From positions 1 through 46,393 of the forward strand of contig JALVVX010000024.1 in assembly GCA_027038555.1 (NCBI GenBank): a stretch of 46,393 bases of DNA, read 5' to 3'. The position numbers were made by a program, and so were the translations under genes. Below the pieces are notes generated by a model that did no database searches, had not been told where the DNA came from, and saw only the letters and a list, made by a program, of their open reading frames with translations. Each line of letters starts with the position of its first letter. Position 1 is the first letter of the stretch. This document shows positions 27,845-29,275 of the stretch, piece after piece. Origin of the DNA: Nautiliaceae bacterium (GTDB lineage Bacteria > Campylobacterota > Campylobacteria > Campylobacterales > Nautiliaceae).

Positions 27845-27873
27845 TTGACTTTTTAAGGTTTTTTTGATATTAT
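27845..27873 (+). promoter_or_regulatory. sigma-70 promoter of ssrA
   Basis: TTGACT (27845-27850), a 17-bp spacer and TATTAT (27868-27873), each one base off consensus. Transcription would begin near 27880, about 35 nt before the mature tmRNA. Confidence 0.75.
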
Positions 27874-27886
27874 TGCATTAGTCAAT

Positions 27887-27917
27887 CCCGCTAAGTTCTT
27901 TTAGAGAATTTAACGGG
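27887..27917 (+). other. precursor hairpin overlapping the tmRNA 5' end
   Basis: CCCGCTAAGTTCT (27887-27899) pairs with AGAATTTAACGGG (27905-27917) around a 5-nt loop: 13 positions with one C-A mismatch and one G-U. The 3' arm takes in the first three Gs of mature tmRNA, so leader folding competes with the acceptor stem until the leader is cut off. Confidence 0.5.
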
Positions 27918-28290
27918 GGTGACATGGCTTCGACAGGGGTAGAAAGCCCTAAGCTGCACGCGTGCCTGAGCAAGCACTAAAACGGCTCGATAAAAATAAA
28001 CGCAGCAAATAACAAATCTTACAGCCCAGCAGTAGCTAGAGCTGCTGCTTAATTAAGTAGTATTTCGGGCGCCTCCGTCCACTGAGGTTCTCCACAGCCT
28101 CGGACGGAGAGTAAAGTGTGGATAGGAATGATTGTTTGAGTGCGGCATTCATTCCGAAAAAAAAGCACTCCTTACTGCTTTAAGGCTTTGTTCGTTGAGC
28201 CTGGCAGTAAGTACAATCAACGAACTAAGCGTGTAGACGCTTAGGGTAATCTGCTTCTGGACTGGGGTTCGATTCCCCACACCTCCACCA
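27915..28290 (+). ncRNA. ssrA: tmRNA (ssrA), one-piece, encoded CCA
   Basis: 376 nt. The 5' end GGGGGTGACATGGCTTCGACA and the 3' end GGTTCGATTCCCCACACCTCCACCA are standard tmRNA ends and pair as a 7-bp acceptor stem (GGGGGTG with CACCTCC, one G-U). The tag reading frame starts at GCA 28002 and ends at TAA 28050-28052, giving AANNKSYSPAVARAAA. The NN...PA...AA pattern recalls Helicobacter and Campylobacter tags. If the second GCA is the resume codon the tag is one Ala shorter. It rescues stalled ribosomes with SmpB (not here). Its own promoter lies upstream. The 3' end is part of a long inverted repeat and is repeated 0.9 kb downstream. Confidence 0.97.
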
Positions 28291-28344
28291 TAAGTCCCTT
28301 TATAAATTTCTATATTACAGGGATTTATGGTAGAGGTGCTTTTT
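28280..28344 (+). terminator. long hairpin using the tmRNA 3' end as its 5' arm
   Basis: 28280-28299 (CACCTCCACCA then TAAGTCCCT) pairs with 28319-28338 (AGGGATTTATGG then TAGAGGTG): 18 Watson-Crick pairs, one G-U and one mismatch in 20, with a 19-nt loop. It is followed by CTTTTTAAAT. This looks like an intrinsic terminator whose 5' arm contains the acceptor strand and CCA of tmRNA, so mature folding must displace it. Confidence 0.65.
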
Positions 28345-28403
28345 AAATATCCACTTTTTTATTAAGCAGGAAATAGTGTTGAAATAAACACAAACACTCA
28401 CGT

Positions 28404-28435
28404 ATAAGCTCTTACAAAGAGACTTATTTTTATTT
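28404..28435 (+). terminator. intrinsic terminator downstream of ssrA
   Basis: ATAAGCTCTT pairs with AAGAG-CTTAT (one bulged A) around a 3-nt loop, followed by TTTATTTAAA. Good shape. It would back up the first hairpin at the tmRNA end, or end transcription coming from within the inserted stretch. Confidence 0.65.
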
Positions 28436-28517
28436 AAAAATTTATATAGTCAGAGACAAATAAGTTTGTAATTTTTGATAAAATCAATAAATAGAAATTT
28501 ACTTAAAAAGGTAGTGT

Positions 28518-29066
28518 TTGAAAATTATAAAATTTTTATTTTTCTGGATATTATTTCCAGTTATTTTAGGATACATAGGTTGTAAGTTATTTAAAGTAAA
28601 TGTATCTGTTATGCAAATTTTTATAATTTGGATCATTGTCTTATATCCAATTTTATATATAAAATATAAAATAAAATTTGAAAAAGAAAAAAAAGAGAAA
28701 AGAGAAAAACAATTAAAAAATCAAATAAAAAATAAAATTATTAAACAAATAAAAATTCGAGACAAATATAACAGCAAAGATTACCTGATTCTTACTGATA
28801 AAAACGAATTCTTTATTTTAAAAGATAATAATGATATTTTAAAAGCTTTTGAAATTAAAAACTATGATTATTCTATAAAAAATATTACAAAAGAAATAAA
28901 TGAAAAGTTGATTCAAATTCCTAGCGGTTATGATGTATCAAATCAAGAAATATATCAATGGAAATTTTATTTAAAAAATGGAAATAAACTTGTATACCAA
29001 ATAGATTATGAAACACATAATAAACTAGAAGAAATTTTTTTAGAATTTTTCTCTAAAAACACCTAA
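28518..29066 (+). CDS. unrecognised membrane protein with coiled coil, TTG start
   Basis: 182 aa that I do not recognise. Two hydrophobic helices lie at about 3-24 and 28-48, followed by a Lys/Glu-rich stretch of about 35 residues (EKEKKEKREKQLKNQIKNK) that should be helical or coiled. The C-terminal soluble part of ~110 residues is rich in Asn, Lys and Ile, with YLILTDKNEFFILKDNND, which has a beta-strand character like a PH-type fold (weak impression). The start is TTG at 28518 with AAAGGTAG upstream. It is the only gene between the two copies of the tmRNA 3' end, so it may have come with an integrated element. It is followed by a hairpin around 29073-29096. Confidence 0.6.
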   Translation: MKIIKFLFFWILFPVILGYIGCKLFKVNVSVMQIFIIWIIVLYPILYIKYKIKFEKEKKEKREKQLKNQIKNKIIKQIKIRDKYNSKDYLILTDKNEFFILKDNNDILKAFEIKNYDYSIKNITKEINEKLIQIPSGYDVSNQEIYQWKFYLKNGNKLVYQIDYETHNKLEEIFLEFFSKNT

Positions 29067-29170
29067 CTAAACACCTTAAAAGAAAAATTTTAGGGGTATA
29101 AGTAGTAATTAAACAAAACAGCTTAATAAAATTAAGAATTTAAGATATGTTTGTATAATTATAAATTCGT

Positions 29171-29181
29171 CACCTCCACCA
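29171..29181 (+). repeat. direct repeat of the tmRNA 3' end (attR-like)
   Basis: CACCTCCACCA is identical to 28280-28290, in the same orientation. No tRNA fold precedes it. The matching stretch stops at 11 bases. A GC-rich 11-mer is unlikely to recur by chance within 1 kb of such AT-rich DNA. Confidence 0.6.
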
Positions 29182-29275
29182 TTTGTTTTTTAGTGTCAGT
29201 GAGTTTTTATTTATATAGGCAAAGATATTAATTTTTGATATATTTATATCCTAAAAAATCATTTAAGGAAATACA

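Follow-up and report, generated by a model that had tools for sequence, protein, structure and literature searches.

We analyzed a stretch of DNA (the window, 46,393 nucleotides [nt]) from a Nautiliaceae bacterium, a hydrothermal-vent organism, and found that the sequences flanking its transfer-messenger RNA (tmRNA) gene, ssrA, can each pair with one strand of the mature acceptor stem. On balance, we favor the view that the primary transcript is a doubly held precursor (pre-tmRNA), with a 5′ hairpin that is old in the family and a 3′ terminator-like hairpin derived from an insertion, and that both stems are undone before maturation. The two hairpins, their conservation and covariation, the insertion, and their mutual exclusion with the acceptor stem are computational observations. 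The original prediction for this locus dealt with the 3′ end alone and was incomplete in that it overlooked the conserved lock, which is on the 5′ side and is the stronger and more general finding. Genomes are referred to by G numbers; G000 is the window's own genome, and the others named here up to G019 are also Nautiliaceae. The family set comprised 21 genomes, and the order-wide set comprised 399 (378 from other families).

The gene itself is a conventional, one-piece tmRNA. It scored 160.5 bits with Rfam model RF00023, against a gathering cutoff of 47, and covered model positions 1 to 374 of 374; ARAGORN read the tag AANNKSYSPAVARAAA. The permuted, two-piece form (RF04321) was rejected, with scores of just 26.7 and 22.9 bits against a cutoff of 47. 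The mature RNA ends in the 11 bases CACCTCCACCA.

The leader hairpin begins at the predicted transcription start (Table 1). It has a folding energy of −20.6 kcal/mol (z score, −5.0) and scores 61.5 bits with a covariance model of the leader. Fifteen of 17 family tmRNAs have the hairpin (z scores, −4.5 to −6.5), those of G010 and G013 being the two that lack it; it is absent from 36 tmRNAs of other families (z score, about 0). Counted over all Nautiliaceae leaders, 16 of 18 carry it. In 15 of 15 relatives with the hairpin, a −10-like box ends 6 to 7 nt upstream of it, and hence the hairpin should start at +1. The pairing probability of the 5′ strand is uninformative by itself, because GGGGG finds partners in shuffled leaders too; we relied on energy z scores and covariation. 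Covariation was counted in 12 gapless 43-nt leaders, because alignment with the 44-nt leaders placed a gap inside the stem. The pairing holds in 93.5% of cells, and 9 of the 18 leader pairs show double changes, one of these pairs spanning the boundary of the mature RNA. The covariation score was 0.494, compared with at most 0.157 for slid pairings. Position 5 of the mature RNA covaries with its leader partner through U-G, U-A, C-G, and G-C. A covariance model trained on the 12 leaders and run on the 399 genomes recovered G003, G004, G017, and G019, all outside the training set, and gave no tmRNA match elsewhere in the order (378 genomes sampled from other families). Weak matches (<29 bits) in five other genomes were not at tmRNA where they could be compared. 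By eye, none of seven tRNA loci in G000 has a comparable leader lock.

At the 3′ end, the claim that 20 bases including the end of the tmRNA pair almost perfectly with a downstream segment and are followed by a T run held up. The arms form 19 of 20 pairs, comprising 18 Watson-Crick pairs and one G-U pair (28294/28324), with a single C·A mismatch (28286/28332), and CTTTTT follows. The best chance partner reached 17 of 20 pairs when the mature end was kept and the trailer was shuffled 5,000 times. The region from 28262 to 28350 folds at −37.6 kcal/mol (z score, −7.2), and none of 200 shuffled sequences folded equally well. A 20-position stem preceding a U-rich tract is the arrangement of an intrinsic terminator, with two qualifications: the loop is unusually long, at 19 nt, and the mismatch splits the stem into an outer helix of 6 bp and an inner helix of 13 bp. 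A simple terminator scan, which takes loops of 3 to 8 nt only, did not list the site. When an intrinsic terminator immediately follows a tRNA or tmRNA gene, its stem usually begins 3′ of the CCA. The hairpin described here is like such terminators in having a GC-containing stem and a T run a short distance from the encoded CCA but differs in that the CCA, the discriminator, and the acceptor strand lie within the stem. In this species, the hairpin most likely serves as a terminator and 3′-processing stem, and the tying up of the 3′ strand and CCA is most likely a side effect, to be undone before RNase P cleavage and 3′ trimming.

We folded mature and precursor RNAs with nearest-neighbor energies (ViennaRNA). 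In the mature RNA, the acceptor stem has a pairing probability of 1.00 at 37°C and 0.98 at 55°C. Attaching either the leader or the trailer, or both, lowers this to about 0 to 0.01. The trailer alone suffices (about 0.01), in agreement with the proposal that the mature 3′ strand and CCA form one arm of the 20-position stem; the acceptor stem and the hairpins are thus mutually exclusive in the folded precursor. Forcing the acceptor stem to form costs 14.3 kcal/mol at 37°C and 9.5 kcal/mol at 55°C. Removal of the first 10 nt of the window's leader restored acceptor pairing to 1.00 and 0.98 at the two temperatures. The same removal in G014 restored it only partly (0.73 at 37°C and 0.37 at 55°C), indicating that the release step may differ among species. 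The further claim, that maturation must choose between acceptor stem and terminator, is supported as far as mutual exclusion goes. However, only 6 to 7 bp are contested, the inner 13-bp helix can persist once the acceptor stem forms, and the corresponding hairpins of G009 and G013 have no T run.

The second arm of the 3′ hairpin lies inside an 891-bp insertion that separates the tmRNA from its ancestral trailer. A repeat search found 12 bp of the tmRNA end directly repeated at 29171 to 29182. Twelve of the 13 other Nautiliaceae tmRNAs that lack the 3′ hairpin have the CCA followed by exactly 11 nt and GTGTCA, and the G019 trailer is also of this type; the exception is G010, which has neither the motif nor the hairpin. 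GTGTCA was not found within the first 30 nt of the trailer in any of 36 tmRNAs of other families. The window has this ancestral trailer next to the displaced copy of the tmRNA end rather than next to the gene, and we therefore conclude that the insertion swapped the ancestral trailer for a terminator-like hairpin. The single open reading frame (ORF) of the insertion, encoding 182 amino acids (aa), gave no match in Pfam or PADLOC; a protein 79% identical to its product is encoded on a short contig of the sister genome G003, with 94% DNA identity over 450 bp. For the left 227 bp of the insertion, no full-length relative was found in 21 family genomes. Short matches of this left part elsewhere were set aside, those inspected being AT rich or coding and chance-like.

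The insertion resembles the islands that integrate at tRNA and tmRNA genes (tDNA islands), for which tmRNA is the most enriched target (PMC4383910). As in such islands, an intact tmRNA is followed by inserted DNA and then by a displaced, directly oriented tmRNA 3′ fragment, here with the ancestral trailer attached. Unlike them, it is only 0.9 kb long (island criteria specify >2 kb) and has no integrase gene, so it would fail the Islander length and integrase filters; a further difference is that the new trailer hairpin pairs with the mature tmRNA end. Its appearance suggests a remnant or a small passenger. In G017, a tyrosine integrase gene with an Arm-DNA-bind_3 domain (L048, 2068 to 3288) begins 189 nt 3′ of the tmRNA, which supports tmRNA as an integration site in Nautiliaceae. 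A search for a matching attP of phage or plasmid kind returned 21 IMG/VR pattern matches that lack the extended hairpin and look unrelated, and phage records contained no relevant match.

The 3′ hairpin occurs in 4 of 17 family tmRNAs (G000, G015, G009, and G013). Comparison with sister ssrA genes gave a mixed picture: three relatives keep the stem with compensatory changes, contrary to the possibility that no relative would have it, but it is absent from six other tmRNAs of the same genus (among them G001, G003, G004, G005, and G007) and from 36 tmRNAs of other families. A looser pattern run on the 399 genomes of the order produced no further tmRNA case that stood out, with a gap limit that misses long loops, including that of the window. 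The four hairpins have the same G-U pair, all four trailers begin with [AT]AAG, and three pairs are changed on both sides among the four sequences; on these grounds, the hairpins look homologous. Their loops vary widely (about 19, 8, and 2 to 4 nt). The G015 hairpin, which lies between the CCA and a mutated motif, GTGCCA, probably also has no good T run. In G009 and G013, rnpB follows directly with no T run, indicating that the hairpin is not always a terminator. What the hairpins have in common is therefore pairing rather than termination. The hairpin is rare and insertion borne and hence is not a general tmRNA mechanism. Similar hairpins at the tmRNA CCA, mostly without a T run, occur in the unrelated Vicinamibacteria, Firestonebacteria, and Oscillospiraceae (L123, L135, L154, and L179). 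A widespread occurrence of the same hairpin at tRNAs was rejected, as most pattern matches in genome contigs were false positives in which the first tRNA is followed by a second one with the D-loop sequence TGGTAGAG.

Table 1. Features of the ssrA region in window coordinates
Feature	Position	Strand	Basis or remarks
Predicted promoter, TTGACT-17-TATTAT, TG before −10 box	27845-27873	+	Consensus scan; +1 at ~27880-27881
5′ leader hairpin, 34-nt leader and mature nt 1-9 (27915-27923)	27881-27923	+	Fold, covariation, covariance model match
tmRNA (ssrA), one piece, CCA encoded	27915-28290	+	ARAGORN; Rfam RF00023
3′ trailer hairpin; arm 1 (28280-28299, CACCTCCACCATAAGTCCCT) is acceptor strand, discriminator, CCA, and 9 nt	28280-28338	+	Paired with arm 2 (28319-28338, AGGGATTTATGGTAGAGGTG)
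T run 3′ of hairpin, intrinsic-terminator-like	28340-28344	+	Sequence: C, then TTTTT
Insertion between tmRNA 3′ end and ancestral trailer, 891 bp	28291-29181		12-bp direct repeat; ancestral trailer 3′ of 29181
182-aa ORF in insertion, two hydrophobic segments, then charged region	28518-29066	+	Relative in sister genome G003
Displaced copy of tmRNA 3′ end (CACCTCCACCA, 11 bp), attR-like	29171-29181	+	Direct repeat D6
Ancestral tmRNA trailer, N11, then GTGTCA (29193-29198)	29182-29198	+	Spacing shared with 12 Nautiliaceae tmRNAs

We propose the following sequence of events, in which we infer the start and end of transcription, the order of steps, the enzymes, and the biological benefit. The primary transcript would be a pre-tmRNA with each acceptor strand held by an extension. 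The leader would fold from +1 with mature nt 1 to 9 into a 5′-terminal hairpin, the old, family-wide part of the arrangement. Its likely role would be to keep the G-rich 5′ strand occupied and the 5′ end shielded during synthesis of the ~370 nt that precede the 3′ strand; the cost would be that 5′ maturation becomes conditional. An element that targets the tmRNA 3′ end would, on inserting there, have regenerated CACCTCCACCA and exchanged the N11-GTGTCA trailer for a hairpin with a T run. Unlocking would likely occur by RNase III cleavage of the stems, RNase III being encoded in this genome, or by loss of ~10 nt from the 5′ arm of the leader. Once a strand is freed, the 7-bp acceptor stem could form while the inner hairpins may stay, and RNase P and 3′ exonucleases would then finish maturation. 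Gated maturation is plausible; a regulatory switch is unproven. Only tentatively do we extend this to the statement that Nautiliaceae tmRNA is singly or doubly locked, with the conserved 5′ hairpin as the common element, that an obligatory unlocking, in which a stem is cleaved or the 5′ end trimmed, precedes RNase P and gates activation, and that some lineages gained a CCA-end lock through a mobile insertion. Several points weigh against the doubly held precursor. Model energies ignore tmRNA tertiary contacts, pseudoknots, SmpB and EF-Tu, and cotranscriptional kinetics, and these could be enough to open both locks readily. Neither hairpin is essential, given that G013 has only the trailer hairpin and G010 lacks both. 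The end of transcription at 28345 is inferred rather than proven. For the left part of the insertion, which lacks an ORF, there is no intact relative, and delivery by an integrase is deduced from the repeat alone, with no integrase in the insert.

The 3′ hairpin might instead be a plain terminator with no functional effect, an inverted repeat and T run left by the insertion, with the acceptor stem forming fast through strand exchange or capture by RNase P and without delay. We regard this as a possibility to be taken seriously, if a less probable one than the doubly held precursor. The small contested region, the inner helices retained when the acceptor is forced, and the occurrence of the hairpin in just 4 of 17 family tmRNAs all fit it, and RNase P normally unwinds mispaired precursors (PMC9433436). 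It does not, however, account for the pairing kept by compensatory changes in G009, G013, and probably G015 despite the lack of a good T run, and it leaves the conserved leader hairpin unexplained. About as credible is the suggestion that the hairpins, like those of rRNA precursors, are mainly RNase III cleavage sites, which in G009 and G013 would part tmRNA from the RNase P RNA of the same transcript. Against this, the stem, at about 20 bp, lies close to the low end of the lengths that RNase III cleaves efficiently. Conversely, the G009 and G013 hairpins abut rnpB with no −10-like box between, and the enzyme, present in this genome, acts on the 3′ end of E. coli tmRNA (PMC3968760).

We consider it unlikely that the locks form a regulated fold switch that delays or conditions tmRNA activation, for example, by temperature or the availability of RNase III or RNase J. 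Mutual exclusion, the near-zero acceptor probability in the precursor, and the conserved leader geometry with its hairpin starting at the predicted +1 would suit a switch. Yet both locks hold at 55°C in the model, which therefore predicts no simple opening by heat; moreover, no regulatory signal is known, and the leader lock is missing in G010 and G013. Similarly improbable, in our judgment, is that the 3′ inverted repeat belongs to the integrating element as DNA, forming part of attP, and has no RNA role. This would fit the location of the inverted repeat, where the insertion, bordered by a direct repeat of the tmRNA 3′ end, starts on its left side, and the preference of islands for tmRNA (PMC4383910), but the loop lengths vary and the arms covary instead of being fixed, as for RNA pairing, and IMG/VR gave no matching attP.

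The closest parallel to the pre-tmRNA proposed here is with RNase P anti-determinant leaders. Pairing of the leader near the cleavage site, or pairing of the 3′ RCCA, slows or inhibits RNase P and is said to occur in endogenous pre-tRNAs (PMC9433436). The window has such pairing of cleavage-site nucleotides with the leader as a covarying prediction. Unlike those leaders, this one belongs to a tmRNA, occupies nine mature bases of the 5′ strand, and has a fixed geometry and family-wide covariation; the tmRNA of this species has its 3′ strand paired as well. As in E. coli, where RNase P acts at the 5′ end and RNase III or RNase E and exonucleases act at the 3′ end, the tmRNA would be made as a longer precursor, but an equivalent double sequestration is not described there (PMC3968760). 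In the open-licence papers searched, we found neither the 5′ leader lock nor the 3′ hairpin described. tmRNA maturation is usually seen as routine work of RNase P and exonucleases. A family-wide, covarying leader hairpin that uses nine mature bases is a clear and testable conserved alternative pairing at the RNase P site, and the 3′ hairpin illustrates that an essential RNA gene can acquire, by insertion at the favorite site of islands, a trailer complementary to its own mature end. Direct testing is possible in culturable members of the family, among them Nautilia profundicola, which carries the leader hairpin.

The juxtaposition of rnpB and the tmRNA trailer hairpin in G009 (L042) and G013 (L043), with no −10-like box between, suggests that tmRNA and rnpB are cotranscribed in these genomes. 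In the other genera examined, rnpB is located elsewhere and has its own TATAAT-like box. A search for RNase P RNA gave no match in the whole genomes of G000, G004, and G005; in G002 and G003, the match reaches the contig end, and assembly breaks near rnpB are thus likelier than gene loss. The longer word TAGTGTCAG, which contains GTGTCA, occurs several times per genome, above a reversed-pattern control in most family genomes, and is also found 3′ of rnpB in G002 and G003 and near tRNA ends. In another family, G330, G342, and G348 carry several scattered copies of long palindromes that start with CTCCACCA and end with TGGTGGAG, constituting a repeat family.
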